Source: Celeribacter neptunius (GTDB taxonomy: Bacteria; Pseudomonadota; Alphaproteobacteria; Rhodobacterales; Rhodobacteraceae). Taken from it: DNA of 64,000 nucleotides. The notes under the pieces are model-generated. The model had not been told where the DNA came from. It ran no database searches and was given only the letters and a program-made list of their open reading frames with translations. The DNA is taken from positions 186,001 through 250,000 of the forward strand of contig NZ_FORH01000007.1 of the NCBI RefSeq assembly GCF_900113955.1, given 5' to 3'. The translations under genes were made by a program, and so were the position numbers. This document shows, in pieces, positions 30,039 to 58,730 of this stretch. Every line of letters starts with the position of its first letter. The stretch's first letter is position 1.

Positions 30039-31298
30039 ATGAGTTTTTCGACCAGATTGCAGATAGGGCAGGCGCCGGTCTTTCGGATGGGCCATGTGAT
30101 CAATGTGCTGCAAATGTCCGGTGCGGAGCTTGAGGATCATCTCATGCAGGCGGCGCGGGAGAACCCGTTTCTGGTGATGCGCAGGCGTCGGAATGCCGTG
30201 GTCCGGGCGGGCAATGCGCTCGACCTGCCCGATGTCGACCGTGCCGATGCGCCGACCAGTCTCTTTGACCATGTGCTGCGCGAACTGGCCGGGCTGCTCG
30301 CCCACGGCGGGGCGATGGAGCGGCTTGTCCTGGCACTTGTCGAGGAACTGGAGCCGTCGGGATGGCTTGGCCGCGGCGCGGCGGAGATCGCGGCGGAGCT
30401 GGGGCTGGCCGAGACCTTGGTCGCGCAGGCCCTGAGACTGGTTCAGCACCGGATTTCGCCGGCCGGGCTGTTCGCCCGGGATCTCGCCGAGTGTCTGCGC
30501 TTGCAACTGGAGGATCAGGGCTTGCGGGATGCCGAGATCGACAAGCTGCTCGATTGTCTCGAACTGCTCGAAACTGGCGGCCTCGCGGCGCTGACGGAAG
30601 CCACCGGGCTCTCCGGCGACAGGGTGGAGCATCATCTCGCACGGTTGCGTCGGCTCGATCCCAAACCGGGCGTCAGATTTTCGACTGACCTGACGCTGCT
30701 CCGGGCCCCCGATGTGCGGGTCGAGCCGCGCGGCGACGGCTGGATCGCCATCGTCAAACCGACCTTCGAAACAGAGGTCTCCGTGCTCCCGGAGGTGACC
30801 GGGGGCAGCTCGCCCGAACTGCGACTGGCGCTGAAACAGGCCCGCGCCCTCAAACAGGCGCTTGATCTGCGCAAAGGTGCTCTGGAGCAGATCATGCACT
30901 ACATGGTCGATGTTCAATCGGACTATTTTCGCGATGGCCCGGAGGCGCTGCACCCGCTTTCGCGATCTGTGATCGCGGAAGGAACGGGGTTTCATCTCAG
31001 CACCGTCTGCCGTGTGCTGAACGGTCTGCTGGTCGAAGGGCCGCACGGGATTTTCGAGGCCCGGATGCTCTGCGCCCAGACCGCCTCGCGTGGCGCCGAG
31101 GGCGGTCCGTCGAAACCCAGGGTGCTGTCGCGCCTGCGCGCCGCGCTCTCTGAGGAAAGCCCGGCCTGCCCCTTGTCCGATCAGGGGCTCGCCGATCGGC
31201 TCTGTGCCGAGGGGCTGAGGGTGTCGCGCCGCGTGGTGGCCAAATATCGTCACGAGCTTGGCTTCGCCCCGGCGTCACAGCGGCGCTTGCGGGCCTGA
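30039..31298 (+). CDS. rpoN: RNA polymerase sigma-54 factor, additional RpoN paralogue
   Basis: A 419-aa sigma-54 factor. Region I at the N-terminus reads FRMGHVINVLQMSGAELEDH then LMQAARENPF, the activator-responsive element. The core-binding region follows, then the DNA-binding helix-turn-helix, then an RpoN box SRRVVAKYR near residues 396-404 (the canonical box is ARRTVAKYRE). Region II is short and not strongly acidic. The genomic context is not the usual rpoN-hpf-ptsN neighbourhood, so this is probably an extra copy. It sits just upstream of a -24/-12 promoter and the monooxygenase operon. Confidence 0.88.
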   Translation: MSFSTRLQIGQAPVFRMGHVINVLQMSGAELEDHLMQAARENPFLVMRRRRNAVVRAGNALDLPDVDRADAPTSLFDHVLRELAGLLAHGGAMERLVLALVEELEPSGWLGRGAAEIAAELGLAETLVAQALRLVQHRISPAGLFARDLAECLRLQLEDQGLRDAEIDKLLDCLELLETGGLAALTEATGLSGDRVEHHLARLRRLDPKPGVRFSTDLTLLRAPDVRVEPRGDGWIAIVKPTFETEVSVLPEVTGGSSPELRLALKQARALKQALDLRKGALEQIMHYMVDVQSDYFRDGPEALHPLSRSVIAEGTGFHLSTVCRVLNGLLVEGPHGIFEARMLCAQTASRGAEGGPSKPRVLSRLRAALSEESPACPLSDQGLADRLCAEGLRVSRRVVAKYRHELGFAPASQRRLRA

Positions 31299-31339
31299 TC
31301 CCACCGCCCGAAATCCCCAGCCAATCCTGAAATTCCGAA

Positions 31340-31360
31340 CCGCCGCCCGCCGGCGGTTTT
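31340..31360 (+). terminator. Rho-independent terminator after rpoN
   Basis: CCGCCG (31340-31345), loop CCCGC, CGGCGG (31351-31356), then TTTT. It ends the sigma-54 gene transcript before the monooxygenase control region. Confidence 0.7.
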
Positions 31361-31625
31361 GCCGTTTTGAGACATGTCATCGCGGCGGGTCGCCGCCCGG
31401 GGAGAGCGCAGGGGAAACCGCGCGAGACCCTCTTGGGGACCTGCTGTGTAACGCTCTGCACCGGTCACTGTAAATGCCGGGCGTAACGTTCCGTGACACT
31501 GCCGTTCACCGCCTTGCGCAAGGGTTTTGGAAGCAGCGCAGCGCAAAAAAAATAATACAAAAATATACATAAATAACAGTGAGTTGTATGAAAATTTCAT
31601 GCTGCAGCTGCACATTTCCCTGCTC

Positions 31626-31641
31626 TGGAACCAGCCTTGCA
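31626..31641 (+). promoter_or_regulatory. Sigma-54 (-24/-12) promoter of the monooxygenase operon
   Basis: TGGAAC-CAGCC-TTGCA matches the consensus TGGCAC-N5-TTGCW with one mismatch, and the GG (31627-31628) and GC (31639-31640) elements are separated by exactly 10 bases. It is correctly oriented for the operon starting at 31884. Confidence 0.75.
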
Positions 31642-31883
31642 TGAAGAGAGGCATAACACGCGGTCACCCACCGGGGGATCGTACAAGAACGAAGGATCGG
31701 GAGGAAAATATCACCGGCACCGGTGGCACAGGCCACGGGGCGGTCCGGGTTGGATAGGACTCATCTCCACCTTTGCCGAGAACCCGTGTGGCGCGCGCCG
31801 ATGCCCGTCGCATGAACCGAAACGGCGAAAGCCGCCAAACGTGACCGGGAAACCGGGCTCAGAGCTTTAAGGAGGCTCATGGC

Positions 31884-33548
31884 ATGACTTTGACGCTTAA
31901 TAAGATCACGTCGCAACGTGGTATCTCGGTCGGGGAGGCGACCAAGAAGATCGCAGATCTGGGGTGGAACCCGTCCTATGTTCAGGAGGCTGCGACCTTC
32001 CCAACCGATTACAAGATCACCAAGGCGCCGCGCGACCCGATGAAACAGGTCCTGCGCTCCTACTTCCCGATGGAAGAGGAAAAGGACAACCGGGTTTACG
32101 GCGCGCTCGATGCGGCGCTGCGGGGTGACATGTTCCGCAATGTCGAACCGCGCTGGATCGAATGGATGAAGCTGTTCCTGGCGATCATTCCCTTTCCGGA
32201 AATCTCGGCCGCACGTTCGATGGCCATGGTGGCACGCCTGTCGCCCGGCGAGGACCTGCGCACCGGTTTCACCATGCAGATGGTCGATGAATTCCGCCAC
32301 TCCACGATTCAGATGAACCTGAAGAAATGGTACATGGAAAACTACATCGACCCGGCCGGGTTCGACATCACCGAAGAAGCCTTTGGCAAGTGCTATGCCA
32401 CCACCATCGGCCGCCAGTTCGGTGAAGGCTTCATCACCGGCGACACCATGACCGCCGCCTGCATGTACCTGACCGTGGTTGCAGAAACCGCCTTTACCAA
32501 CACGCTGTTCGTGGCCATGCCGTCGGAAGCGGCGCGCAATGGCGACTATGCGCTGCCGACCGTGTTCCTGTCGGTGCAATCGGACGAGAGCCGCCACATC
32601 GGCAATGGCCACTCGCTCCTGATGGCGGCGCTGAAGGAGCCGGAGAACCATCTGCTCTTGGAGCGCGACCTGCGCTATGCCTTCTGGCAGAACCACGCCA
32701 TCGTCGATGCCGCCATCGGCACCTTCATCGAATACGGCACCACCAACCGCGACAAGGAAAAGGAATCCTATGCGGAAATGTGGCATCGCTGGATCTTTGA
32801 AGACTACTACCGGACCTACATGCTGCCGCTCGAGAAATACGGCGTGAAGATCCATCACGACGATGTCCAGGAGGCCTGGAAGCGGATCACCGAGAAGAAC
32901 TATGTCCACAAGGTCGCGCAGTTCTTTGCGGTCGGCTGGCCGGTCAACTTCTGGCGCATCGAAGCCCAGACCGACAAGGATTTCGAGTGGTTCGAACACA
33001 AGTATCCGGGCTGGTACGCCGAGTTTGGCGAGTTCTGGAAATGGTACGACAAGCTGTCGAAACCGGGCGAGACGGTGATGACCTTCAACCAGGACACCGG
33101 CTATGTCTATCCGCATCGCTGCTGGTCCTGCCTGGTGCCTTGTCTCATTCGCGAAGACATGGTCGTCGACCAGATCGATGGTCAGTGGCACACCTTCGGT
33201 CATGAGCTCGACCGCTGGACCGCGGTCGAGGCCTTCGCGGACGAATACCAAGGTCGCCCGACGCCGGCCATGGGCAAGTTCTCGGGCAAGCGGGAATGGG
33301 AGACCGTCTATGACGGCTGGGATCTCGCCGATGCGATCAAGGACCTCAACTTTGTGCGCGAAGACGGCGAAACCCTGACCGCACAGCCGCATCTGCGCTT
33401 CGACAACAAGGACATGTGGAAACTCGAGCACGTTCGTGGCCACACGCTGCGCTCGCCGCTCAACATGCTGCGCGCCATGTCCGATGCCGAGCGCGAGGCC
33501 CATGTCGCGGAGTACCGCAAGGGCTTCACCATCAACGCCTGCAACTAA
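31884..33548 (+). CDS. mimA: Soluble di-iron monooxygenase hydroxylase large subunit (PrmA/MimA type)
   Basis: A 554-aa alpha subunit of a group 5-like bacterial multicomponent monooxygenase. The carboxylate-bridged di-iron ligands are all visible: E106, E136 and H139 (DEFRH), E201, E235 and H238 (DESRH), with the same 30/65/34 spacing as soluble methane monooxygenase. The sequence closely follows remembered propane monooxygenase PrmA (SYFPMEEEKDNRVYG, FPEISAAR, IGRQFGEGFITGD). Relatives in mycobacteria and Rhodococcus hydroxylate propane, acetone and phenol. First gene of the operon behind the sigma-54 promoter, with AAGGAGGCTC upstream of the ATG. Confidence 0.95.
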   Translation: MTLTLNKITSQRGISVGEATKKIADLGWNPSYVQEAATFPTDYKITKAPRDPMKQVLRSYFPMEEEKDNRVYGALDAALRGDMFRNVEPRWIEWMKLFLAIIPFPEISAARSMAMVARLSPGEDLRTGFTMQMVDEFRHSTIQMNLKKWYMENYIDPAGFDITEEAFGKCYATTIGRQFGEGFITGDTMTAACMYLTVVAETAFTNTLFVAMPSEAARNGDYALPTVFLSVQSDESRHIGNGHSLLMAALKEPENHLLLERDLRYAFWQNHAIVDAAIGTFIEYGTTNRDKEKESYAEMWHRWIFEDYYRTYMLPLEKYGVKIHHDDVQEAWKRITEKNYVHKVAQFFAVGWPVNFWRIEAQTDKDFEWFEHKYPGWYAEFGEFWKWYDKLSKPGETVMTFNQDTGYVYPHRCWSCLVPCLIREDMVVDQIDGQWHTFGHELDRWTAVEAFADEYQGRPTPAMGKFSGKREWETVYDGWDLADAIKDLNFVREDGETLTAQPHLRFDNKDMWKLEHVRGHTLRSPLNMLRAMSDAEREAHVAEYRKGFTINACN

Positions 33549-33628
33549 CCAACACTCCGGGTGCCGCAGCCGCGGCCCCGGACCCTCGGCACCGCGAAAA
33601 GGCGTGTGCCGTGTCCAGGGAGGAAAGA

Positions 33629-34687
33629 ATGACGGAAGTACATACCGTCCGATTAGAACCCGTTGGTGTGGAATTCGAGGTCGAAGAGGGGGAAACCATC
33701 CTCGACGCCGCATTCCGCCAGGGGATCGCGCTGCCGCATGGCTGCAAAGAGGGGCAATGCTCGGCCTGCAAATGCGTCCAGCTCGACGGCGAGACCGAGA
33801 TGCTGAAATATTCCACCTTCGCGCTGAACGAGATGGAACGGGACAGCGGCCATGTGCTGATGTGCCGGACCCTTGCCTACAGCGATGTCGAGATCGAATT
33901 GCTGAACTACGACGAGGAGGTGCTCTCGAAGTCCATCCCGGTGCGCCAGTTCTCCGGCAAGATCGTCGATTTCCAGAAGCTGACCCACGATATTCGCGGG
34001 GTTCAGATCGAGCTGGATGCACCTCTCAAATTCTGGGCGGGTCAATATGTCGACATCACGGTCAGGACCGAAGCGGGGGAGGAGATTACACGCTCGTTCT
34101 CCATGGCAAATTCGCCGAGCGAAACCCAAAAGCTCGGCTTCATCATCAAGAAATACCCCGACGGGCGGTTCTCCAACGAGCTTGACGACGGCGGCATCAA
34201 AGCCGGAGCCGAAGTCGAAGTCGAAGGGCCCTACGGAATGTGTTTCCGACGGGAAGACCGAGAAGGACCCGTGATCCTGGTGGGCGCCGGCTCCGGCATG
34301 TCGCCGGTCTGGTCGATCCTGAACGATCATATCGCAAGCGGTGAGGACCGGCCGGTCTATTTCTTCTACGGCGCAAGGGGCCGTGACGATCTGATCCTGC
34401 GCGACGAGATCGATGCGCTCACCGCTGCCAACCCGGCGATCGAATTCATCCCGGTGCTCAGCCATGCCGATGACGATGCCGAATGGACCGGCGAGCGCGG
34501 CTTTGTGCACGAGGCAGTCGACCGGCGGCTCAAGGCGCTCGGGATCGATGGCGAGGGCGATGTCTATGCCTGTGGTCCGCCGCCGATGATCGATGCGCTG
34601 ACGCCGGTGCTCTTCATGCACGACTTCGATACCGATCGCATTTTCTACGACAAGTTCACGCCCACTTCCGGTTCTTCGGGCCATTGA
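33629..34687 (+). CDS. mimB: Monooxygenase reductase component (2Fe-2S/FAD/NADH)
   Basis: A 352-aa electron-transfer subunit. The N-terminal plant-type 2Fe-2S domain has C39, C44, C47 (HGCKEGQCSACKC) and C79. The FAD domain has the RSFSMAN motif and the NAD domain has VGAGSGMSPVWSIL, with CGPPPMIDA near the C-terminus. It carries electrons from NADH to the hydroxylase. The start at 33629 has AGGGAGGA upstream; an earlier in-frame start runs back into the mimA gene and is rejected. The order A-B-C-D matches mim/prm operons. Confidence 0.94.
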   Translation: MTEVHTVRLEPVGVEFEVEEGETILDAAFRQGIALPHGCKEGQCSACKCVQLDGETEMLKYSTFALNEMERDSGHVLMCRTLAYSDVEIELLNYDEEVLSKSIPVRQFSGKIVDFQKLTHDIRGVQIELDAPLKFWAGQYVDITVRTEAGEEITRSFSMANSPSETQKLGFIIKKYPDGRFSNELDDGGIKAGAEVEVEGPYGMCFRREDREGPVILVGAGSGMSPVWSILNDHIASGEDRPVYFFYGARGRDDLILRDEIDALTAANPAIEFIPVLSHADDDAEWTGERGFVHEAVDRRLKALGIDGEGDVYACGPPPMIDALTPVLFMHDFDTDRIFYDKFTPTSGSSGH

Positions 34688-34734
34688 AAGCGGCCCGAAC
34701 GCTAGTGACGTGAAACCAACAAAGGGAGGCTACC

Positions 34735-35796
34735 ATGGTAGCAACATCTAGTTCAGTCGGCTCCGGTGCCGCAGGCGCCGCAGAGTTCGTCGGCTCGAAA
34801 AGCCGCAAATACAATTACTTCGAACCGCGCGGCCGGCGGGCGACCCATTACGAGGACGTCACCGTCGACGTGCAACCCGATCCCGAGCGCTATCTGATCC
34901 AGAACTGGATCATCGAGTTCGAAGGCGGCAAGGGCGGTGGTGCCTACCGCAAGGACAATACCGCCGCGCTGTCGAGCAACTGGCATGCGTTCCGCGCGCC
35001 CGATCAGGAATGGGAACGGACCCATTATCAGCGCCAGTCGAAGATCGAGACCATGGTTCAGAACGTCATCTCCAACGCCCGCAAGGCCGGTGCGCACAAG
35101 GTGTTCGACAAGGCCTGGCAGACGATCCTGCAAAAGCACCTGGGCGCCTGGAAACACGCCGAATTCGGCCTGGGCACCTCGCTCATGCAGGCGCAGCGCT
35201 ACGGCTACACGCAGATGATCAACAACGCCACGCTGACCAATTCGTCCTACAAGATGCGCCTGACCCAGGACATCACCCTGTATCTGGCCGAGATCGGCAT
35301 GGACAACGAGGGCTGGGACGACGAGCTCGGCAAGAAGACCTGGCTCGAGGATCCGATCTGGCAGCCCTGCCGTGAGGCGGTCGAGACGATCATGGGCTCC
35401 GAGGATTATCTCGAACAGTATTTCGCCATCAACATCGTGTTCGAACCGCTGGTCGGCGAGCTGATCCGCTCTGGCTTCTTCATGCAGGCGGCGGCGGCCA
35501 ATAACGACTTCATCACCCCCTCGGTGATCTCGGCGGCCGAGGCCGATTACGAGCGCAACCTCGCGAATACGGTCGATCTGATCTACCTGCTGGTTCACGA
35601 CGAAAAGCACGGCGAACACAATCGCATGCTGTTCAAGTCCTGGCTCGCCAAGCATGGCGCGCTGGCGGAAAAGGCGGCGGATGCGCTCCAACCGATCTGG
35701 TCGCAGCCGCATTCCAAACCGGTTTCCTACCACGACGTGAAAGAGGTCTCGCGCGAGCGTCTGGCCCAGATCCTCGCCGAACTCGGCCTCAATTAA
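34735..35796 (+). CDS. mimC: Monooxygenase hydroxylase small subunit
   Basis: A 353-aa beta subunit of the hydroxylase. It has the ferritin-like scaffold pattern of the family (AEFGLGTSLMQAQRYGYTQM, then INNATLTNSSYKMRLTQDIT) but not the paired ExxH ligand set, as expected for the non-catalytic subunit. It begins 47 bases after mimB, with AAAGGGAGG upstream. It should assemble with MimA as the dimeric hydroxylase core. Confidence 0.93.
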   Translation: MVATSSSVGSGAAGAAEFVGSKSRKYNYFEPRGRRATHYEDVTVDVQPDPERYLIQNWIIEFEGGKGGGAYRKDNTAALSSNWHAFRAPDQEWERTHYQRQSKIETMVQNVISNARKAGAHKVFDKAWQTILQKHLGAWKHAEFGLGTSLMQAQRYGYTQMINNATLTNSSYKMRLTQDITLYLAEIGMDNEGWDDELGKKTWLEDPIWQPCREAVETIMGSEDYLEQYFAINIVFEPLVGELIRSGFFMQAAAANNDFITPSVISAAEADYERNLANTVDLIYLLVHDEKHGEHNRMLFKSWLAKHGALAEKAADALQPIWSQPHSKPVSYHDVKEVSRERLAQILAELGLN

Positions 35797-35818
35797 TCAT
35801 CCAGACAAGGAGAACAAG

Positions 35819-36193
35819 ATGTCTAGCATAGCGCGCAACGCATCCAAGCAGAACATCTTCAAGTCGATGCAGGACATCGACATGACCTCGCGCGAGGTGT
35901 CGCACCAGTGTGGTGTGACGATGAACGACAGCGTCGAGGCCCGCGCCATCGCCGAGTTCATGGAAGAGAACAACCCCAATGTGACCGTCACCTACAATCC
36001 GGCGACGATCCGGATCGACGGCGAGGGCAAGCTGATCTTCAAGATGGATGAGATCACCGAATATCTCGGTCGCGAAATGACCGCCGAAATCTTCGAGGTG
36101 AACACCTCGACCCATTATGGCCGCATGGTCCGGGTCGACGACAACACCGTGATCCTCTTCGGCGACATGAACGAAGTGATGGAATACATCTAA
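35819..36193 (+). CDS. mimD: Monooxygenase coupling/effector protein (MmoB/DmpM family)
   Basis: A 124-aa cofactor-less regulatory subunit. The core matches the MmoB/DmpM family (VSHQCGVTMNDSVEARAIAE, then RIDGEGKLIFKMDEI). It binds the hydroxylase and tunes oxygen activation. It lies 22 bases after mimC. Length is slightly above the usual 90-115 residues because of an N-terminal tail. Confidence 0.92.
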   Translation: MSSIARNASKQNIFKSMQDIDMTSREVSHQCGVTMNDSVEARAIAEFMEENNPNVTVTYNPATIRIDGEGKLIFKMDEITEYLGREMTAEIFEVNTSTHYGRMVRVDDNTVILFGDMNEVMEYI

Positions 36194-36368
36194 GCGTTTT
36201 GCCCGGGGGCGGTTCACCCCTGTCCCCGGCTTTCCCGACAGACGCAGACCCGAGAACGATCCGGAGGACCGGCAGGCGGAGGAGCCTCGATGCCGCGATC
36301 CCGACCGGACGGGCCAGGCATCGAACCGGGCAATCAATCACAGCCACGCACACCCAGGGAGGGTCCCC

Positions 36369-37391
36369 ATGTATATCACACCCGAAGGCAAGGAAATTTT
36401 CGTTCTCGACGGTCACACCCATTATTGGGACGGCAGCCCCGAGAACCAGACCAATATCCACGGCAAGCAGTTCATCGACTGTTTCTATGCCTATCACACC
36501 AATTTGAGCCCGAAAGAGCATCTCTGGGAAAAGGCCCGGTTCGAGAAATATTCCGAAGACAACATCTATCGCGACCTCTTCGTCGACGGGCCGAATGACA
36601 TGGCAATCATTCAGACCACCGTGCTGTCGGATTTCTACGAGAACGGGTTTTCCTCGATCGAGCGCAGCTCGGCCATGGCGGAGCGCCATCCCGAACGCTT
36701 CATCGTCAACGGTTCGTTTGACCCGCGCGACGGCGAAAAGGCGCTGGAACAGATCCATTACATGAAGGAGACCTTCGATATCACCGGCGTGAAAATGTAC
36801 ACCGCCGAGTGGAACGGCGCCTCCAAGGGCTGGGCGCTCAACGATCCTCAGGCCTACAAGTGCTTCGAGCTCTGCGACAAGCTCGGTATCAAGAACATCC
36901 ATGTCCACAAGGGGCCGACGATCATCCCGCTGTCGAAGGATGCTTTCGATGTGCATGATGTCGATTACGCCGCCACCGATTTCCAGAACCTCAACTGGAT
37001 CGTCGAACATTGCGGCCAGCCGCGGATCGACGATTTCTGCTGGATCGCGACGCAGGAAACCAATGTCTATGGCGGGCTCGCCGTGGTGCTGCCCTTCATC
37101 CATTCGCGGCCGCGTTACTTTGCCGAGATGATCGCCGAGCTGCTCTGGTGGGTGGGCGAGGACAAGATCCTCTTCGGTTCGGATTACGCGATCTGGACGC
37201 CGCAATGGCTGGTCGAGAAATTCTGGAATTTCCAGATCCCCGACGACATTGCCGAAGAGCGCGGGGTGCAGCTGACCGACGCGATCAAGGAGAAGATCCT
37301 CGGTCTGAACGCCGCCAAGATCTATAACATCGATGTCGAGGCGAAGAAGAAACAGCTCGCCGGTGCACCGGTGCAGATCGCGGCGGAGTGA
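36369..37391 (+). CDS. Amidohydrolase-family protein of mim/prm operons
   Basis: A 340-aa metal-dependent hydrolase of the amidohydrolase_2 family. The N-terminal metal motif is GHTHYWDG (H16, H18), further ligand candidates lie in NIHVHKG, and the catalytic aspartate is in LFGSDYAIW near residue 270. Homologues occur at the same place in actinobacterial mim/prm clusters, where the protein is commonly annotated as an amidohydrolase without a proven substrate. A role in maturation or in metabolism of a product is possible. It follows mimD by 175 bases. Confidence 0.85.
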   Translation: MYITPEGKEIFVLDGHTHYWDGSPENQTNIHGKQFIDCFYAYHTNLSPKEHLWEKARFEKYSEDNIYRDLFVDGPNDMAIIQTTVLSDFYENGFSSIERSSAMAERHPERFIVNGSFDPRDGEKALEQIHYMKETFDITGVKMYTAEWNGASKGWALNDPQAYKCFELCDKLGIKNIHVHKGPTIIPLSKDAFDVHDVDYAATDFQNLNWIVEHCGQPRIDDFCWIATQETNVYGGLAVVLPFIHSRPRYFAEMIAELLWWVGEDKILFGSDYAIWTPQWLVEKFWNFQIPDDIAEERGVQLTDAIKEKILGLNAAKIYNIDVEAKKKQLAGAPVQIAAE

Positions 37392-37395
37392 TCGG

Positions 37396-38199
37396 ATGTT
37401 CGTTGCCCAATTGATGGCCGAACGGGAACTCGAGGTCTGGGACTGCCTTGCGGCAGTCTCCGATCCCGAGCTCGACGAGCCGATCACCGATTTGAACTTT
37501 GTCGAAGCCGTGAGCGTGAACGACGATCACACGGTCCGGGTCGAGTTCCGTCTGCCCACCTACTGGTGCTCGCCGAATTTCGCCTTTCTGATGGCTTTCG
37601 GCATCCGCAACGCGGTCATGGCGCTGCCCTGGGTGCGCGCGATGACCGTAGAGCTCAAGGATCATTGCTTTGGCGATGAGGTGAACGACGGGGTCAACAG
37701 CGGCCGCCCGTTCCATCAGATCTTTGCCGAGAATTGCGATGGGGCGGTGCTCGACGATGTGGTGGAGAAATTCATGGCCAAGGCCTTTGATCGCCGACAG
37801 GAAGCCATGCTTCTGGCGCTGAAGGCCAAGGACAGGCCGATTGCGGAGATCGTCTCGATGACGGTCGGGGCGTTGAAGAAGACCCATTTCACGGGTGAGG
37901 AGGCGTTCCGGCAGCTGCCGCGATATCTCGACATTCTGGCGGCGAAGGGCCTCGCTTTGACGGACCGCGACCCGGCCTTTCCGACCTGGCAGGGCGGGCG
38001 GATCTCGCCCGAGGCGCTGGGCCCGCATCTGCGGCGTCTGCGCAGCACCCGTCTGACGATGGAGTTCAACGGTGCGCTGTGCCGGGGACTGGCTCAGAGC
38101 CGCTACAAGGAGGTCGAAATCGGTATCGACGGGCCGACTTTGGTCGATTTCATCGCCGGCCGGGTGCCGCCCCGAGAGGCGCCGGAACCCGGCATCTAA
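37396..38199 (+). CDS. MIP18/DUF59-type metal-sulphur cluster assembly-like protein
   Basis: A 267-aa protein. Residues about 10-95 form a MIP18/DUF59 domain (DCLAAVSDPELDEPITDLNF and YWCSPNFAFLMAFGI), the family linked to Fe-S or metal-centre assembly. The C-terminal ~170 residues are an extension that I recognise only as typical of mim/prm-cluster proteins. It begins 5 bases after the amidohydrolase stop. Helping iron insertion into the hydroxylase, together with the next-gene chaperonin, is inference. Confidence 0.8.
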   Translation: MFVAQLMAERELEVWDCLAAVSDPELDEPITDLNFVEAVSVNDDHTVRVEFRLPTYWCSPNFAFLMAFGIRNAVMALPWVRAMTVELKDHCFGDEVNDGVNSGRPFHQIFAENCDGAVLDDVVEKFMAKAFDRRQEAMLLALKAKDRPIAEIVSMTVGALKKTHFTGEEAFRQLPRYLDILAAKGLALTDRDPAFPTWQGGRISPEALGPHLRRLRSTRLTMEFNGALCRGLAQSRYKEVEIGIDGPTLVDFIAGRVPPREAPEPGI

Positions 38200-38262
38200 G
38201 CGTCTAAATCACAACGAAAATGGGAGGAGGCCCAAGACTGCTTTGGGTCCAAGGAGGAAGAT

Positions 38263-39894
38263 ATGGCTAAACTCATGGTGCACGGCAAAAACGCCCGCAA
38301 ATGCCTCGCGCAGGGCGTGGCGCGGCTGGCGGCTGCGGTCGAACCGACGCTCGGGCCGAAGGGGCTCAACGCGATGGTGGATCGGCCGGTCGGAACCCCG
38401 ATGGTCACCCGCGACGGTGTGAGCATCGCATCCGAGATCGAATTGACCGACCGCTTCGAAAACATGGGCGCCCAGGTGGTGCGCGAAGTCTCAATGCAGA
38501 CCAACGATGTGGCCGGCGACGGCACCACCACCGCCATCGTTCTCGCCAATGCGCTGATCCAGAACGGCGTTGAGCTGACCGAGAACGGTGCCCGCCCGGT
38601 CGATCTGTGCCGCGGCATCGATCTCGCCGTGCAGACCATCGTCGAGGCGATCGATGCCTCGTCGCGCGATTGCGAGGAAAACCCGGATTATCTCGAAGCG
38701 GTTGCCCATGTCTCGGCCACCGATCCGAAACTCGGTACGCTGGTCGCCGAAGCCTATCGCCGGGTCGGGCGCGACGGGGTCATCTCGGCCGATTTCGGTG
38801 TGACGATCGACACCACCATGGAAGTGGTCGAGGGCATGTCCTTTGAGCGCGGCTACATTTCGCACCACATGGTGACGGATCGCGAGCATATGGAAGCGGT
38901 GCTGCGCCACCCGCTGATCCTGATGACGGATCAGAAGATCCTGAAACCCGACCTGCTCGACAATGCCCGCCGCATCGCCGACGCAGAAAACCGCCCGCTT
39001 CTGATCATCGCCGAAGAAATTGCCCCCGAGGTTGTGATCACGCTGTTGGAGAATGGCGGCGCCGGCAAATACCTGATCGTGCATCCGCCGGAATACGGCC
39101 ATTGGCGCACGGCGATGATGGACGATCTGGCCATCCTCACCGGCGGCGAGGTGCTGGCGCGTGATCTGGGCAAGAAGATCGAGAATGTCACCCGCGCCCA
39201 GCTCGGCGGCGCCGAGACGGTGCGCACCCATGCGTCGCACACCTCGATCCTGCGCGGCGAAGGCGACCCGGAAGCGATCCGCGCCCGCCGTGCTCAGGTG
39301 CAGCGCCAGCATGACGTGGCGCCGCCCAATATCGAAAAGGACAAGCTGCGCGAGCGCATGTCCAAACTCACCGGTGGCAGCGCGATCATCTATGCCGGCG
39401 GGTTCACCCCGGTGGAACAGAAGCGCACGATCCAGCTGGTCGAGGACGCGCTCTGTGCCCTGCGCGCCGCGGTCGAGGATGGTGTGGTGGCCGGTGGCGG
39501 CACCGCGCTGGCGCAGATCGCCCCCTGTCTCGATGGCCTGAACGTCTCGGGGGACATGGCGCGCGGCGTGGCCCTGGTCCGCTCGATCCTGACCCAGCCG
39601 GTGCGTCGGATCGCGCGCAACGCCGGGGCCGATGCCGACACCGTCTCCGACAAGGTCGTCAACGCCCCGAAGGATCATGGCTACAACGCCGCGACCGGCG
39701 AGTTCGGCGACATGTTCGAGGCCGGGATCATCGATCCCGCCCGGGTGCCGGCCAGCGCCCTGGTCAACGCCGCCTCCGTCGCGACGCTGATCCTGACCAC
39801 GGAAACGCTGATCGGCGATCTGGAAGAAGGCGAAGCCGACCCGACCGAGGGCCCCGCGCTCGGCGGCGGTGCCGAGCTTCTGGGGCGCAAATAA
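38263..39894 (+). CDS. mimG: Specialised GroEL-like chaperonin (MimG type)
   Basis: A 543-aa type I chaperonin. The equatorial ATP motifs are intact (TLGPKGLNA; NDVAGDGTTTA; GVVAGGGTAL). The apical domain is divergent: the substrate-binding helix region reads APEVVITLLENGGAGKYLIV instead of the GEALATLVVNTMRG type, and GYISHHMV replaces the usual GYLSPYF. The tail ends GGGAELLGRK rather than GGM repeats. No groES is adjacent. In Mycobacterium, MimG is required for productive folding of MimA; the same dedicated role is likely here. Confidence 0.88.
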   Translation: MAKLMVHGKNARKCLAQGVARLAAAVEPTLGPKGLNAMVDRPVGTPMVTRDGVSIASEIELTDRFENMGAQVVREVSMQTNDVAGDGTTTAIVLANALIQNGVELTENGARPVDLCRGIDLAVQTIVEAIDASSRDCEENPDYLEAVAHVSATDPKLGTLVAEAYRRVGRDGVISADFGVTIDTTMEVVEGMSFERGYISHHMVTDREHMEAVLRHPLILMTDQKILKPDLLDNARRIADAENRPLLIIAEEIAPEVVITLLENGGAGKYLIVHPPEYGHWRTAMMDDLAILTGGEVLARDLGKKIENVTRAQLGGAETVRTHASHTSILRGEGDPEAIRARRAQVQRQHDVAPPNIEKDKLRERMSKLTGGSAIIYAGGFTPVEQKRTIQLVEDALCALRAAVEDGVVAGGGTALAQIAPCLDGLNVSGDMARGVALVRSILTQPVRRIARNAGADADTVSDKVVNAPKDHGYNAATGEFGDMFEAGIIDPARVPASALVNAASVATLILTTETLIGDLEEGEADPTEGPALGGGAELLGRK

Positions 39895-39955
39895 GCCCTG
39901 CAACATATCGGGTCGCCGCGGATCGGCGGCCCGCTCAGCCAGAAGGAACCAGGAC

Positions 39956-40999
39956 ATGAAAGCAGCGAGACTCTACGAATACGATCCGGCCGTGAACGTG
40001 CAGCTGAAGATCGAAGATGTTGCCTCTCCCACGATCACCGCAGCCGATGAGGTGATCGTCAAGGTCGGTGCGGCGGGCTTGTGCCGCACCGATCTCCATA
40101 TCATCGAAGGCGTGTGGAAAGACATCATGGATCAGGGCGGCAATCTCCTGCCCTATATCATGGGCCATGAGAACGCCGGCTGGGTCGAGGATGTCGGCAG
40201 CGGTGTCACCTCGGTCAAGCCCGGCGATGCGGTGATCTGCCACCCGTTCAACGCCTGCGGCATCTGCCTGAACTGCCGGTATGGCCACGACATGTATTGC
40301 GATCACGGTCTCTTCCCGGGCCTCGGTCTCGACGGTGGCTTTGCCGAATATTTCAAGACCAACGAGCGCTCGGTGATCAAGCTCAACACCGGTATCACGC
40401 CGCTGTCGGTCGCACCGATGGCCGACGCCGGCATCACCGCCTACCGCGCCGCCAAGAAGGCCGCGAAACTGTTGAACCCCGGCGGTTATGTCGTGCTTCT
40501 GGGCATCGGCGGGCTCGGGCATATCGCGCTGCAGGTGCTCAAACACACCACGGGGGCCCGGGTGATTGCGGTCGATCAGGAACCGGCAGCGCAGGTTCTG
40601 GCCAAGGAGCTCGGCGCCGATATCGTCATCGCCGGCGGGGAGAACCTGGTCGAGGAGATCAAGGACCTGACCGGCGGCGGCGCCCATGTGGCGATCGATT
40701 TCGTCGGGGAATACGGCACCGAGAACCTGTGCTGGAAATTGCTGCGCCAGGGCGGCGAGCTGATCATGGTCGGCTATGGCGGCGAGGTGCGGGTGCCGAC
40801 GCTCGAACTTGTGGCCAACGAGATCAAGATCGGCGGCAGCCTGGTCGGCGATTTCGTCGAGCTGGTCGAGCTGATGGAGATGAACGCCGACGGCAAGGTG
40901 AAAATGCACCAGACCGAATACAGCCTCGACAACATCAACCTCGCGATCTCGGATTTCAAGGCGCGCAAGTTCACCGGGCGCGGCGTCATCGTTCCCTGA
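39956..40999 (+). CDS. Zinc-dependent NAD(P) alcohol dehydrogenase
   Basis: A 347-aa medium-chain dehydrogenase. The catalytic zinc region is GLCRTDLH and GHENAGWVEDVG; the structural-zinc cysteines are in CGICLNCRYGHDMYC; the cofactor motif is LLGIGGLGHIALQVLK. It probably oxidises the alcohol formed by the monooxygenase (for propane, 2-propanol or 1-propanol). It lies 61 bases after mimG, with AGAAGGAACC upstream of the ATG. Homologues occupy this place in prm clusters. Confidence 0.9.
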   Translation: MKAARLYEYDPAVNVQLKIEDVASPTITAADEVIVKVGAAGLCRTDLHIIEGVWKDIMDQGGNLLPYIMGHENAGWVEDVGSGVTSVKPGDAVICHPFNACGICLNCRYGHDMYCDHGLFPGLGLDGGFAEYFKTNERSVIKLNTGITPLSVAPMADAGITAYRAAKKAAKLLNPGGYVVLLGIGGLGHIALQVLKHTTGARVIAVDQEPAAQVLAKELGADIVIAGGENLVEEIKDLTGGGAHVAIDFVGEYGTENLCWKLLRQGGELIMVGYGGEVRVPTLELVANEIKIGGSLVGDFVELVELMEMNADGKVKMHQTEYSLDNINLAISDFKARKFTGRGVIVP

Positions 41000-41027
41000 G
41001 CCGGTCGCCTTCCTGACGACGGCCCCG

Positions 41028-41049
41028 TGGCCGACCTTCGGGTCGGTCA
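41028..41049 (+). other. Intergenic UUCG-tetraloop hairpin
   Basis: TGGCCGACC (41028-41036), loop TTCG, GGTCGGTCA (41041-41049): a 9-bp stem with one G-U pair and a very stable UUCG loop, without a T-run. It lies between the alcohol dehydrogenase and glyoxalase genes. It is more likely an mRNA processing or stability element than a terminator. Confidence 0.5.
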
Positions 41050-41076
41050 CCATTCCAACATTATCGCGAGGACACC

Positions 41077-41472
41077 ATGGCCAAATCCATCCATTCGATG
41101 ATCCGCGTTCTGGACGAGGCGCGCTCGGTCGATTTCTACCGCCGCGCCTTCGGGCTCGAGATCGCCGACCGGCTCGATTTTCCCGAATTCACCCTCATCT
41201 ACCTGAGCAATGACGAGGCCGGTTTCGAGTTGGAACTGACCGTCAACAAGGGCCGCGCCGAGCCCTACGATCTGGGCGATGGTTACGGCCATTTCGCCGT
41301 CTCGGTCTCGGATCTCGACGCCGAACATGCCCGGTTTGAAGCCGAGGGGCTCACCCCCCGCAAGCTGGTGGACTTTGCCCCGGCGGGCCGCCGCATCGCG
41401 CGGTTCTTTTTCGTCGCCGACCCCGATGGCTACCAGATCGAGGTGCTCGAACGGGGCGGCCGTTTTTTATGA
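41077..41472 (+). CDS. gloA: Glyoxalase I (lactoylglutathione lyase), VOC family
   Basis: A 131-aa VOC-family enzyme closely following GloA: HSMIRVLDEARSVDFYRRAF at the start, a FELELTVNKGR segment, the DGYGHFAVSV motif and DPDGYQIEVLE. The four metal ligands H, E, H, E are in place. It converts the methylglyoxal-glutathione hemithioacetal to S-lactoylglutathione. Its presence inside the oxidation operon suggests that methylglyoxal is formed there, for example from acetol. Confidence 0.85.
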   Translation: MAKSIHSMIRVLDEARSVDFYRRAFGLEIADRLDFPEFTLIYLSNDEAGFELELTVNKGRAEPYDLGDGYGHFAVSVSDLDAEHARFEAEGLTPRKLVDFAPAGRRIARFFFVADPDGYQIEVLERGGRFL

Positions 41473-41506
41473 ATTTTCCAGTCTGTTAAGGAGGAGACAG
41501 AGGACC

Positions 41507-42031
41507 ATGAACACCCTAGAGAGAAACCGGGGTCTGACCCGGCGCATGCTGTTGTCACGGGCCAGCGCGCTTGGCGCGAGCTTCGTCGTCGGCGCAGGCT
41601 TCATCGCCGCCGCGGATGCGGCCTGGGCGACCGAGACCCAGCACCTGAGCCCTGAAACCTTCGCGACACTGGTGCAGATGGCACGCGATATCTATCCGCA
41701 TGACCATGTCTCCGACGAATTCTATGTGATCGCCGTCAAGGGCTATGACACGGCAGAGGCCGCCGCCGATATCGAGGCGGGGATTGCCGCGCTCGATGGT
41801 GCCGCCCGGGGCCGCGGATATGCCGGTTATCTCGGCGTGGCCTGGGAACGCGACCGCGTCGAGCTTTTGCGCGCGATCGAGGAAAGCGTGTTCTTCCAGA
41901 GCATTCGCGGCGGGCTTGTCACCGGTCTCTACAACCAGAAGGCGCTCTGGCCGCTGTTTGGCTACGAGGGCGAAAGCTTTTCCCACGGCGGCTACATCAA
42001 TCGTGGCTTCGACGACATCAACTGGCTTTGA
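41507..42031 (+). CDS. Tat-exported gluconate 2-dehydrogenase subunit 3-like protein
   Basis: A 174-aa protein of the gluconate_2-dh3 family. A twin-arginine signal is visible (LTRRMLLSRASALGASFVV). The mature part has MARDIYPHDHVSDEFYVIAV and a C-terminal SFSHGGYINRGFDDINWL. Family members are the small subunits that fold with, and carry, a signal-less GMC flavoprotein through the Tat system. The flavoprotein gene follows 18 bases later. A strong AGGAGGA site lies upstream. Confidence 0.87.
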   Translation: MNTLERNRGLTRRMLLSRASALGASFVVGAGFIAAADAAWATETQHLSPETFATLVQMARDIYPHDHVSDEFYVIAVKGYDTAEAAADIEAGIAALDGAARGRGYAGYLGVAWERDRVELLRAIEESVFFQSIRGGLVTGLYNQKALWPLFGYEGESFSHGGYINRGFDDINWL

Positions 42032-42049
42032 GCAGGAGGAGAAGCACTC

Positions 42050-43621: not shown

Positions 43622-43701
43622 CACGCTGTTTTCCCGGTCCGATGCCTCGCGGGAGCCGGGCCGGGAGCTCTCTCAACCCCAAAGACACATCACAGGGATA
43701 G

Positions 43702-45909
<2,208 letters not shown>

Positions 45910-45946
45910 CCGCTTGCGGCGAAATTTGGCCGAGAGGCCTGACATC

Positions 45947-45970
45947 CCCGAACGCCGACCGGCGTTCGGG
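45947..45970 (+). terminator. Perfect 11-bp hairpin after katG
   Basis: CCCGAACGCCG (45947-45957) and CGGCGTTCGGG (45960-45970) form a perfect inverted repeat. No T-run follows, so it may be a weak or factor-assisted terminator or an mRNA 3' end stabiliser at the end of the oxidation operon. Confidence 0.5.
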
Positions 45971-46131
45971 ACCTCGGAATACAGGTCTCGTTTCAGCCCT
46001 TTAGGGGCGATTGGGCCTTGTTTTCAAGCTCTCACGGCATGTTCACTTTATCTGCATTTTCGCTTGATGCGACATTTTGACATAGCCTGGTGAGGGCCGA
46101 AGTGTTATCGTTTTCGATGGGAGGAATGCGC

Positions 46132-46701
46132 GTGGATATCTTTTCAAAGCGCGACGGTCCGCGTCCGGAGGACGTGCGGGCTAAGCGACTTATATCCGAA
46201 AATGCCGGCACGATCCGCAGACTGGCGGATCAGATCAGCAATGGCGGTTTCACGAAAATGCGCCAGGATGAAGCCCGGCGCAAACAGGCGCCCAAGCCCG
46301 ACGGCCTGCTCATCTATTCCATGTCCACGGCGGCAAGATCCGATGACCCGGACCCCTATGTCCGGGTGAGCCTGAGCGGCCGCGTCGCGCTTGTCGACAG
46401 CAACAACGGGCATCAGATCCAGTTGCTGGGGGAGCTGCGACGCAGCTTCGGCGCGCAGCGCTTTGTCCTGGCCACGGCGGCGAACGGATTTGTCTCTCCG
46501 GTCAGCGCAGAGATCGAGGCGGCGCTCACTCAGTACGAGGATGTCGAACTGGGGCCTGATTTCACGGAAAAAGACATCGTTCAGAAGTTTGGAGCCTGCC
46601 TGGGCCTGTCGGACAAATGGCAGGAGAACCGGGACGAACCAGAGCTCCAGACTGAGAAAGGGCACGGTATAGCCGAAGATGACTCGAGCGAGCTACTATA
46701 A
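46132..46701 (+). CDS. Hypothetical protein coupled to the AcoR/MimR-type activator
   Basis: A 189-aa protein of unknown family, starting (V)DIFSKRDGPRPEDVRAKRLI. It is charged, has no signal or membrane segment, and contains a central beta-rich part (YVRVSLSGRVALVDSNNGHQ) and an acidic tail. I chose the GTG at 46132 because GGGAGGA lies about 7 bases before it; an ATG at 46126 abuts that site and a GTG at 46090 has none. Its 3' end overlaps the activator gene by 23 bases, so the two are co-translated; a partner or modulator of the activator is possible. Confidence 0.65.
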   Translation: MDIFSKRDGPRPEDVRAKRLISENAGTIRRLADQISNGGFTKMRQDEARRKQAPKPDGLLIYSMSTAARSDDPDPYVRVSLSGRVALVDSNNGHQIQLLGELRRSFGAQRFVLATAANGFVSPVSAEIEAALTQYEDVELGPDFTEKDIVQKFGACLGLSDKWQENRDEPELQTEKGHGIAEDDSSELL

Positions 46702-48700
46702 GGGAAGCAAGCGCCAAAACCTGTCAAAGGCGGCGATCGTGTCGGACCGTTCCGCGGAACGCAACATACGTTCGGCCTGGGAAAGCTTTGTCACGGCGGA
46801 CCGGCCCGATGGCGTCAAGCCGGACCATGTCAGGGACGATATTCTGGCGTCCTGGCAGCGCAGCATGGATCTTGGCGTCGATGCCGGGACATTTGGCTCG
46901 CGCAAGATCACCGATGAGACCGAGGTCCTGTTGCGGCGAGAGCGCAACGCGCATCTGCGCAAGGCGGCCTCGGCGGCCTTCAAGCGATTGGAGCCTCATC
47001 TGAGCGACGCCAAGTCGATCCTGCTGCTGGCGGATGATCAGGGGGTGATCATCGATGCGATCGGAGACGAGTCCGTGCTCGACGAGGGGCAGGGGATCCA
47101 TCTCGAAATCGGCGGGCAATGGGATGAGAAGGTCATCGGCACCAACGGCATCGGCACGGCGCTGAGGACCGGAAAGCCGATGTATGTCCACGCCTCCGAG
47201 CATTTCGTCGAGGGGGTTCAGGCCTGGACCTGCGCCGGCGCGCCGATCCGCAACCCGTTCGATGACTCGGTCATCGGCGTTGTGGATCTCTCCGGCCCGC
47301 CCGATATCTTTCGCCGGCACAATGTCGCCCTGGTCCTGGCGGCGGCGCGTGAGATCGAGATCGCCCTGGCGGAACTGCAGCGACAGGACCGGACACAGCT
47401 GCTCGAGGCGTTCCTGCAATCCAAATACAGTCATAGCGACAATTCGGTTCTGCTGCTCGACCGCGAGGGGCGGATCCTGTTCCGGCGCGGGGTGGACGAA
47501 AAGACCTTTCCGGCCTCGGATCAGCTTCTGGTCGGCCACAAGCTGCTGCCCGACCCCGAAGCCGTTTCGGAAAAGGATCTGCCGTCTCTGTTGCCACCCA
47601 ACGTGGAAGCACAGGGCATGGAACGGCTCATTCTTGACAATTCCTATCGTGGCGCGGCGCTGTTTCTGCGCTCGGAACTGCCGAAAATGCGACCGGCGGG
47701 TGGCGGGCTGAGCATTCAGCCGCGCCGCGATGTTACCGAGGATGCAATCCGGATCATTGGCGCCTCGCCGAAAATGCTCGAGGCCATCGAACTGGCGGAA
47801 CGGGCGGCAAAGGTCAATGTCTCGGTGCTGATCCAGGGTGAGACCGGCGTCGGCAAGGAGCTTTTCGCGCGTCTGATCCACAGCCGTCTCGGTCGCGCGG
47901 ACGCGCCCTATGTGCCCGTCAACTGTGCCGCGGTCTCTGGCGATTTGATCGGCGCCGAGCTGTTCGGCTATGTCGATGGCGCCTTTACCGGCGCGGTGCG
48001 CGGCGGGCGGGCCGGCAAGTTCGAACAGGCCGATGGTGGATTGCTCTGTCTTGATGAAATCGGCGATATGCCGATTGAATTGCAGCCTTATTTGCTGCGG
48101 GCGCTGGAACAGCGTGCGATCTACCGCATGGGCGACAATACCCGGCGGCCGGTGGATGTCCGGCTGGTGGCGATGACCAACCGTGATCTGCGCTCCGAGA
48201 TCGACAAGGGCACGTTCCGCCGGGATCTGTTCTATCGCATTGGCGTGGTGACGATCGAGGTGCCGCCGCTCAGGGAACGCGGCAAGGACATCTCCGCCCT
48301 GATCGAACATTTCTCGGCCCATTACGCGGCACAGATCGGTCGGCCGCAGATGGCTTTCGCTGCCGACACGATCGATCTGCTCGAAAGCTACAGATGGCCG
48401 GGCAATGTCAGGGAGTTGCGGAATGTCATTCAGCGCATCTATCTCGTCGGCTCCGGTCCGGTCGTGTGCATCGGTGATCTGCCGCCGGAGTTGCGCGACG
48501 ATTTCGATGAGCCGGAGGCGGATTCTCTCGAGAGCATCCTGAGCGGCAATTCCGGAGATCTCGAAAGCATCGAGGCGAGCGCCATTCGCCGGACGATCCT
48601 CGCCGAAAAGGGCAATCTGACACGGGTCGCGGCGGTTCTCGGCATCTCGCGACCGACGCTTTATCGCAAGATGCGGCAATACCGCATCGATCGTGGCTGA
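46679..48700 (+). CDS. Sigma-54-dependent activator, AcoR/MimR family
   Basis: A 673-aa enhancer-binding protein. The N-terminal region has the AcoR pattern (ILASWQRSMDLGVDAG) and a GAF-type sensor with GTNGIGTALRTGKPMYVHAS. The AAA+ domain is complete: Walker A GETGVGKE near residue 387, GAFTGA near 434, Walker B LLCLDEIGDM, and WPGNVREL. The Fis-type HTH is at the C-terminus (LTRVAAVLGISRPTLYRKMR). It is competent for sigma-54 activation and is the likely activator of the -24/-12 promoter upstream of mimA. Relatives include MimR of mycobacteria and AcoR. Confidence 0.88.
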   Translation: MTRASYYKGSKRQNLSKAAIVSDRSAERNIRSAWESFVTADRPDGVKPDHVRDDILASWQRSMDLGVDAGTFGSRKITDETEVLLRRERNAHLRKAASAAFKRLEPHLSDAKSILLLADDQGVIIDAIGDESVLDEGQGIHLEIGGQWDEKVIGTNGIGTALRTGKPMYVHASEHFVEGVQAWTCAGAPIRNPFDDSVIGVVDLSGPPDIFRRHNVALVLAAAREIEIALAELQRQDRTQLLEAFLQSKYSHSDNSVLLLDREGRILFRRGVDEKTFPASDQLLVGHKLLPDPEAVSEKDLPSLLPPNVEAQGMERLILDNSYRGAALFLRSELPKMRPAGGGLSIQPRRDVTEDAIRIIGASPKMLEAIELAERAAKVNVSVLIQGETGVGKELFARLIHSRLGRADAPYVPVNCAAVSGDLIGAELFGYVDGAFTGAVRGGRAGKFEQADGGLLCLDEIGDMPIELQPYLLRALEQRAIYRMGDNTRRPVDVRLVAMTNRDLRSEIDKGTFRRDLFYRIGVVTIEVPPLRERGKDISALIEHFSAHYAAQIGRPQMAFAADTIDLLESYRWPGNVRELRNVIQRIYLVGSGPVVCIGDLPPELRDDFDEPEADSLESILSGNSGDLESIEASAIRRTILAEKGNLTRVAAVLGISRPTLYRKMRQYRIDRG

Positions 48701-56640: not shown

Positions 56641-56717
56641 AAATAAACCTATATGTATTACATAAAAACAATCTAGTTTTCTGTATTTGATCGGTCAACT
56701 AGCCTCTTGGTCAATCG
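56641..56717. promoter_or_regulatory. cbbR-cbbL intergenic operator/promoter region
   Basis: AT-rich 77 bases. It contains the palindrome ATGTA-T-TACAT (56653-56663) and an inverted repeat CTAGTT (56673-56678) / AACTAG (56697-56702). LysR-type sites have such T-N11-A dyads. CbbR binding is inferred from location. Confidence 0.55.
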
Positions 56718-56741
56718 ATGACCGAATGGAGGATGGCCGAG

Positions 56742-58172: not shown

Positions 58173-58248
58173 GTGAAAACTCCGGCCCCAAGGCAAGACG
58201 CTGCGGGGTCGGCATGAACTCAGTACAAAGATATGAAAGGACCGACCC

Positions 58249-58605: not shown

Positions 58606-58730
58606 GACACGGCCTGCGATTATATGCGGAAAAGACGGGGCAGGGGCCGATGGGCGCCGCCCCGGGACAGTCAGAACAGCAAAACAGTCTGAACAGAAAA
58701 AGGGCGCGAAAGCGTCCGGGGTGATCCGAA

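Follow-up and report, generated by a model that had tools for sequence, protein, structure and literature searches.

Does a bacterium that encodes one sigma-54 factor (RpoN) beside a monooxygenase operon keep this factor for that operon? The question is raised by a 64,000-nucleotide stretch of Celeribacter neptunius DNA (assembly GCF_900113955.1, contig NZ_FORH01000007.1, positions 186,001 to 250,000, forward strand), hereafter the window, in which rpoN precedes a -24/-12 promoter, mimABCD-type genes of a soluble di-iron monooxygenase (SDIMO) and the gene of an activator, MimR. The textbook picture of sigma-54 is that of a broad regulator served by many activators. In this bacterium it seems to be reserved for a single monooxygenase operon, and we consider it likely that the locus works as a self-contained sigma-54 switch for that operon alone, consisting of the linked RpoN, MimR, the -24/-12 promoter and a structured leader RNA. 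The genes, their uniqueness and linkage, the RpoN clade, the conservation of promoter and repeats, and the RNA structure were established by sequence analysis. The regulatory features are as follows.

30039 to 31298, plus strand: rpoN, a class I sigma-54 factor from the mim-linked clade, with RpoN box VSRRVVAKYR, assigned by domains, genome count and tree
31447 to 31505, plus strand: TGTAAC repeats, probable MimR enhancer (predicted binding)
31626 to 31641, plus strand: -24/-12 promoter TGGAAC-N5-TTGCA, TGGAACCAGCCTTGCA, assigned by motif and conservation in place
31652 to 31781, plus strand: conserved structured leader RNA, AAGAACGAAGG...ACCUUUGCC, matched by model R1
46679 to 48700, plus strand: MimR/AcoR-type sigma-54 activator with GAF, AAA+ (GAFTGA) and Fis-type helix-turn-helix domains, assigned by domain and motif search

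An initial annotation had listed rpoN, the -24/-12 site, mimABCD, a same-strand run of genes and a GAFTGA activator, and all were found where it had placed them.

RpoN is the only sigma-54 factor in the genome

RpoN has 419 aa, and its PF00309 (AID), PF04963 (CBD) and PF04552 (DBD) domains all scored above the Pfam cut-offs. Its score against the TIGR02395 equivalog (244.6 bits) was below the cut-off of 277.35, and it is therefore placed in the family by its domains, as a divergent member. Compared with the canonical RpoN box ARRTVAKYR, the box VSRRVVAKYR retains both arginines, with A changed to S and T to V. The initial annotation had described this rpoN as second-copy-like, beside a main rpoN, and had proposed counting the genes: the count is one, as the single PF04552 match in the whole genome (4,395,428 bases, 99.99% complete) is the gene at 30039-31298.

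In the RpoN tree the closest relative comes from a Roseicyclus metagenome-assembled genome, and the closest MimA relatives are those of Natronohydrobacter, Tropicibacter and Sedimentitalea. The remark that actinobacteria generally lack sigma-54, also made in the initial annotation, has no bearing on this gene because the nearest named relatives of RpoN are alphaproteobacteria.

Linkage of rpoN and mim recurs in related genomes

The family was sampled with one genome per genus (248 genomes). PF04552 matches (E <= 1e-3) occurred in 84 of them, and 77 were counted as real after seven genomes were dropped whose sole match was a short stretch with an E value of 1e-4 or worse. All eight genomes with mimA have a real rpoN, against 77 of 248 overall (hypergeometric p 7e-5). 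In six of the eight, rpoN lies within 4 kb of mimA; in G083 and G130 it is located on a different contig, with a high score as in canonical rpoN.

Among the best 80 of 589 MimA loci, rpoN was found upstream of mimA in 43, all titled as Rhodobacterales genera or family except L097 and L107, which are titled Alphaproteobacteria only. The 37 loci without a linked rpoN come mainly from what we take to be Hyphomicrobiales and from Roseibium, plus Limibaculum and Granulosicoccus; in two of them (L085 and L117) a contig edge is near. The whole-genome rpoN count was directed at 34 of the 80 loci and covered 33 genomes (L115 was not included), with short matches at E 1e-4 or worse excluded. The linked rpoN is present in 30 of the 33; it is the sole rpoN in 19 of these, and the other 11 have further rpoN genes. 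The sole copy was identified as the linked copy by identical sequences in 16 genomes and by coordinates in three (G251, G272 and G279). The remaining three genomes, all Roseibium, have one unlinked rpoN each.

The RpoN tree (quick search, LG+G4, 40 open forks) was the other check proposed in the initial annotation. In this tree, 49 of the 134 rows form a clade with a Shimodaira-Hasegawa-like approximate likelihood ratio test (SH-aLRT) support of 97, which holds all mim-linked rows except L121 and only three non-mim rows (L289, L302 and L308); L256, L258 and L296 were counted as mim-linked by coordinates. The linked RpoNs thus appear to be essentially one clade, nearly mim-specific. The window RpoN belongs to class I within it (30 rows, support 100), where rpoN is co-directional and 1.5-1.9 kb before mimA. 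Outside class I are 16 linked loci, 14 with rpoN divergent at 2.6-4.3 kb and two (L108 and L110) with rpoN co-directional at 2.4-2.9 kb. Scaled to MimA, divergence was somewhat higher for the linked RpoNs: the median ratio of RpoN to MimA divergence was 9.5, 14.5 and 13.3 in the linked classes I, IIa and IIb, and 6.2 (10 pairs) or 7.8 (three Roseibium pairs) for unlinked canonical RpoN, a control that is too small to establish faster evolution of a single-target RpoN.

MimR is the only activator with an intact GAFTGA loop

MimR has the features of an enhancer-binding protein, namely an AAA+ domain with Walker A and GAFTGA motifs and a Fis-type helix-turn-helix. PF00158 matched at 16 places in the genome, corresponding to ten activator-like proteins and four other ATPases, presumably Clp-like, MoxR-like and similar. 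Intact GAFTGA was found in MimR alone among the ten; in the other nine the loop is altered or absent. Neither a second rpoN nor a second such activator was found in the genome besides the linked pair, which is a stronger result than the initial annotation held. Ten other genomes with a sole, mim-linked rpoN gave 38 PF00158 matches (E <= 1e-25) with exactly one GAFTGA per genome, in each case on the contig of rpoN and mim, and none of the 16 matches at the same threshold in five rpoN-less family genomes had GAFTGA. No further partner of RpoN or MimR can be recognised in the window genome, and the sigma-54 regulon would therefore be essentially one operon.

The protein L003 of the window genome keeps its AAA+ domain with a GAYPGA loop and might still work with sigma-54, which weighs against a one-operon regulon. 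It suggests an alternative in which RpoN is an ordinary sigma-54 in a lineage that has lost most activators and still serves other promoters through non-canonical ones such as L003, its adjacency to mim being incidental. The presence of GAFPGA proteins in three of ten mim genomes examined and the further rpoN genes in 11 of the 30 linked genomes agree with this. However, the linkage recurs in 43 of the best 80 loci and in two arrangements, the RpoN clade is nearly mim-specific, altered-loop activator-like proteins persist in rpoN-less relatives, and a strict promoter scan (below) gave no second non-coding candidate. We therefore regard the alternative as unlikely and retain the single-operon switch.

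The loop variants GAFPGA (L211, L212, L213), GAFAGA (L214) and GAYPGA (L003) occur in genomes with mim-linked RpoN and in rpoN-less genomes alike. Proteins with proline or alanine in the loop are possibly activators that no longer use sigma-54. A second AcoR-like protein with GAF, AAA+ and helix-turn-helix domains is encoded in the window at 575-2428 (minus strand); its AAA+ domain is degenerate and has no GAFTGA.

The promoter and the probable enhancer repeats are conserved in place

The promoter motif alone was discarded as evidence, because TGGCAC-N5-TTGCW within one mismatch occurs at 105 places in the genome and the reversed pattern at nearly as many (90). The position of the site was used instead. 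A site scoring at least 8/11 lies 55-71 nt before the invariant leader block in 81 of 84 mim leaders, compared with 4 of 84 when the same offsets were applied to sequence 150 nt further upstream. Across RpoN classes, leader block 1 starts 56-69 bases (mostly 60-63) after the T of the -24 element. Upstream of mimA, scores of at least 9/11 were obtained in 72 of 81 loci on the forward strand, 2 of 81 on the reverse strand and 317 of 4050 Markov sequences. The strict pattern TGGAAC-N5-TTGCM has nine sites in the genome; the eight besides mim fall within open frames of 181-853 codons, with no TGTAAC hexamer found upstream of any of them, and the mim site falls only in a reverse open frame of 137 codons, open frames not being proven genes. 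The mimA transcript is predicted to start near 31652.

The probable enhancer region contains an exact TGTAAC at 31447-31452 and an imperfect GTAACG...GTGACAC repeat at 31483-31499. In 72 of 84 loci the 260 bp preceding the promoter contain TGTAAC or GTTACA (151 sites). The corresponding figure was 409 of 4200 for Markov sequences and 0 of 83 for stretches taken from further upstream.

Three points count against this assignment: the enhancer region of the window has only one exact hexamer, the TGGCAC-type genome sites are known by count and not site by site, and a weak sigma-70-like site lies at 31527-31556. The last of these speaks for a housekeeping promoter driving mim, with rpoN as a passenger. 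Such a promoter would leave unexplained the near-fixed distance between the -24/-12 site and the leader RNA in 81 of 84 leaders across RpoN classes, and we give this explanation hardly any weight compared with transcription from the -24/-12 site.

The RpoN box and the -24 element may have changed together

In class I, the window's clade, nearly all loci have TGGAAC as their -24 element, and SRR[VIM] replaces ARRT in the RpoN box. PMC5505868 describes contact between the RpoN domain and the -24 element. The fourth box letter is T457 by our own count in the 477-residue chain of the structure used. When this letter is V, I or M, the tested -24 base is A in 29 of 29 cases; L107, a class I member with alanine at this position, has TGGCAC; and a T in the box is accompanied by C in 15 cases, A in 2 (both Roseibium) and T in 2. 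Five loci were dropped from this comparison, L110, L112 and L115 having no promoter candidate and L117 and L119 also no RpoN.

These data are suggestive of a RpoN box and -24 element that drifted together from the canonical pair in the window's clade. The pattern is a lead and not proof, because on the tree it comprises only two independent changes, both concordant; two Roseibium promoters with TGGAAT beside a canonical ARRT box also speak against it. Both of these points favour shared ancestry with unchanged recognition; the 29 of 29 agreement and the alanine box that goes with C speak against it. We consider the chances of shared ancestry to be even.

A structured leader RNA precedes mimA

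The leader of mimA contains two near-invariant blocks, AAGAACGAAGGA and ACCTTTGCC, which are present in all RpoN classes. Block 1 (up to two substitutions) was found in 84 of 86 leaders and block 2 in 82 of 86, and 19 columns are invariant across 63 leaders. Block 1 begins at about +35 of the predicted transcript. The 5' edge of the R1 match was set by the alignment cut, 34 nt before block 1, and the coincidence of the first RNA base with the predicted transcript start was accordingly dropped as evidence. The order of parts is the P1 hairpin, AAGAA, P2 (CGAAGG with CCUUUG), which closes a variable domain, and P3 just within P2. In the window these parts are as follows.

31660 to 31682, plus strand: P1 hairpin
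31685 to 31696, plus strand: block 1
31690 to 31695 with 31770 to 31775, plus strand: P2, with P3 inside it

The P2 strands pair in all 84 aligned leaders, where a G-U pair has become G-C in two instances and A-U in one. In a Bradyrhizobium locus outside the alignment (L331), P2 is CGAGGG with CCCUUG, a two-sided change from A-U to G-C. For P1 and P3, the unfitted alignment had 117 cells with two-sided changes (mean of shuffles 68), and the fitted alignment, which is biased to structure, had 170 (mean of shuffles 91); slid controls were lower. P1 segments folded better than their shuffles, with a mean z of -1.96 and 74 of 84 values below -1; for a control segment the mean was -0.01 and 12 of 84 values were below -1. 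P2 was predicted at 0.5 or above in 73 of 82 cores, in 6 of 82 when the sequence between the blocks was shuffled, and in 61 of 82 full leaders. The proposed helices thus carry compensatory base changes, as expected of a cis-regulatory RNA.

Some results do not favour this structure. About 30% of the P1 and P3 cells do not pair (67-72% do), and two of five covariation measures were no better than shuffles: the number of pairs altered in both strands was reached by 31 and 51 of 500 shuffles, and the number of further pair types by 115 and 242 of 500. RNAalifold alone recovered P2 only, with a covariation term of almost nil. In the window's own core P2 was predicted at 0.24, the best fold with P2 being 0.8 kcal/mol above the best fold. 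If the blocks were DNA sites, such as an operator or a nucleoid-protein site, the RNAalifold result would be expected, as would the constancy of five of the six P2 pairs throughout the alignment, since the blocks are near-invariant. A DNA site would not explain why the P2 changes preserve pairing, including the two-sided change in Bradyrhizobium, why P1 hairpins form with differing arms, why P1 and P3 two-sided changes exceed shuffles, or why the inner sequence suits P2 formation. We find DNA sites very unlikely, and an RNA structure the better explanation; this leader RNA would regulate mim.

Two other ideas did not hold up. Sequestration of the Shine-Dalgarno sequence by block 2 was unsupported, as duplex energies were the same as those of shuffled sequences, and a hidden reading frame formed by the blocks was rejected because the distances between the blocks are spread over all three residue classes modulo 3.

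The leader RNA goes with mim loci

Model R1 matched 84 of 86 sources once each (not L119 or L142); 63 of these had built the model and 21 had not. It also matched all of the plasmid loci L326, L327, L331, L333, L337 and L338, which were not used in the model. In the family sample it matched eight of eight mimA genomes and 0 of 240 others, with filters that lose weak matches, and it matched the window genome once. Among 385 genomes of the class, only the window genome was matched, apart from a weak partial match of 21.8 bits in G363 (L334, C122:20132-20222), a genome without a MimA match at E <= 1e-100. The leader RNA was not found in the mim loci of Azospirillum (L329), Caballeronia (L328), Methylocella (L332), Rhodococcus (L330), Granulosicoccus (L119) and Methyloligella (L142), nor in L335 and L336; in L329 and L142 a TGGCAC promoter is present all the same. 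From this distribution, the RNA accompanies mim within a portion of the Alphaproteobacteria, regardless of which RpoN serves the promoter.

A search of Rfam 15 with the window leader region (E <= 5) gave two weak matches, both upstream of the element, and six other loci gave only one tRNA at the gathering cut-off. We regard this leader RNA as a strong candidate for a class that has not been described, with a single gene as its target. Like riboswitches and ribosomal-protein leaders it would combine an invariant core with variable helices in a 5' leader, but it has no family in Rfam 15 and was found before a single type of gene. Because the hosts are culturable marine and soil bacteria, a direct search for its ligand or partner is feasible.

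Proposed mechanism and comparison with known systems

In the proposed switch, the GAF domain of MimR would sense an inducer and MimR would bind the TGTAAC-type repeats upstream of mimA. Its GAFTGA loop would then open promoter complexes of RNA polymerase and the linked RpoN at 31626-31641, so that RpoN transcribes mim, and the transcript from near 31652 would carry the structured leader RNA ahead of mimA. The regulon would be this one operon and the RpoN-promoter pair would be insulated. The self-contained sigma-54 switch of the initial annotation finds support, at the level of sequence, in the operon's own rpoN, GAFTGA activator and -24/-12 promoter with upstream TGTAAC repeats, which recur as a unit. 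A wider reading takes sigma-54 here as a single-promoter, horizontally mobile accessory with a co-drifted orthogonal box/-24 pair and a new leader RNA class that acts as a second, post-initiation check; this we put forward tentatively, as somewhat doubtful. A one-promoter sigma-54 regulon, if true, could be studied in its entirety, and insulated sigma-54/promoter pairs, if true, could find use in synthetic circuits.

In Cereibacter (Rhodobacter) sphaeroides, specialised RpoN paralogues were reportedly described by Poggio in 2002 and Domenzain in 2011. PMC11999139 and PMC7277832 assign RpoN1 to nif, RpoN2 to fla1 and RpoN3 to AprX. As in the window, each sigma-54 is tied to its own activator and gene set, and rpoN2 lies within its target locus; in C. 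sphaeroides, however, dedicated factors coexist, whereas the operon-linked factor of the window genome is its sole sigma-54, with one GAFTGA activator. For RpoN4, a 2025 paper (PMC11999139) states that no information was available. Cereibacter johrii has four rpoN genes, one of them mim-linked, and the mim-linked rpoN may bear on RpoN4. Specialised RpoNs are already known in C. sphaeroides; the window genome adds an operon-linked factor that is the whole sigma-54 system found there, and an undescribed leader RNA.

The sigma-54 of Chlamydia works with a single activator. It controls many components, according to the abstract of PMC7482065, whereas in the window genome one sigma-54 and one activator would serve one operon. 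Two further papers concern RpoH (PMC4843759), as an analogy only, and general sigma-54 counts (PMC12316311). Among the top-ranked matches in the open-licence literature, no paper title on mim-rpoN linkage or a mim leader RNA was found (PMC11057499 holds both "rpoN" and "propane monooxygenase").

Plasmids carry rpoN and mim together

Three plasmids carry rpoN and mim together: p-SCP4 of Ponticoccus alexandrii (531 kb, typed non-mobilizable), whose cluster has nearly the same annotated gene order as the window, a plasmid of Gemmobacter fulvus (311 kb, typed non-mobilizable) and pAMI4 of Paracoccus aminophilus (438 kb, typed mobilizable). This occurrence fits mobility of the cluster. The locus had initially been called a transferable, privately regulated island: it does recur as a unit and on plasmids, but two of the three plasmids are typed non-mobilizable. 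On pAMI4, an IS5-type element (L327:16925-17854) lies between the mim reductase and beta-subunit genes.

Gene content of the operon and its surroundings

The genes between the leader RNA and MimR are as follows, all on the plus strand.

31884 to 33548, plus strand: mimA-like large hydroxylase subunit (PF02332)
33644 to 34687, plus strand: mimB-like FAD/2Fe-2S reductase, start uncertain (open frame from 33416; domain search)
34735 to 35796, plus strand: mimC-like small hydroxylase subunit (PF02332)
35819 to 36193, plus strand: mimD-like coupling protein (MmoB/DmpM)
36369 to 37391, plus strand: amidohydrolase (domain search)
37333 to 38199, plus strand: FeS-assembly (PaaD-like) domain protein (domain search)
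38263 to 39894, plus strand: GroEL-like chaperonin (Cpn60/TCP1)
39869 to 40999, plus strand: zinc alcohol dehydrogenase, start uncertain (domain search)
41077 to 41472, plus strand: VOC/glyoxalase-fold protein (domain search)
41507 to 42031, plus strand: protein without Pfam match, in the place of a "twin-arginine translocation pathway signal" protein in L326
42050 to 43621, plus strand: GMC oxidoreductase (domain search)
43705 to 45909, plus strand: catalase-peroxidase (peroxidase by Pfam, named katG from the corresponding position in L326)
46090 to 46701, plus strand: conserved protein without family, adjoining MimR, start uncertain (homologues beside mim)

Described mim/prm clusters of soluble di-iron monooxygenases have the order A-B-C-D with a GroEL-like chaperonin, an alcohol dehydrogenase and an AcoR-type activator. 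The window has the same set, its mimABCD-type genes spanning 31884-36193 in the propane-type order; it differs in the linked rpoN, the leader RNA and a MimD that scored below the NCBIfam MimD equivalog cut-off (99.4 against 150 bits). MimA shares 64% identity with a homologue on a plasmid of Rhodococcus sp. JS3073. An alkane or ketone substrate of the cluster is suggested by homology.

The protein at 46090-46701 has 17 relatives in the 87 loci scanned with phmmer (for example L084:19618-20187 and L119:6606-7088), also in the leader-RNA-negative loci L119 and L142. It had no Pfam or NCBIfam match, and its predicted fold (predicted local distance difference test, pLDDT, 72.9; predicted template modelling score, pTM, 0.43) had no PDB match at E <= 0.001.

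Upstream of rpoN, the window encodes a WD40 protein (27517-28737, plus strand) and then a divergent 320-aa protein without family (28993-29955, minus strand). In several bacterial orders, mim clusters likewise adjoin a protein annotated with WD40 repeats, accompanied by small genes (L326:13819-16102, L328:12190-13815, L331:26434-27779 and L337:198-1652); the two sets may or may not be homologous. The region 55708-61917 holds a RuBisCO large-subunit gene (56718-58172), about 8 kb after MimR, together with a LysR-type regulator gene in divergent orientation; a VWA-domain gene follows downstream.

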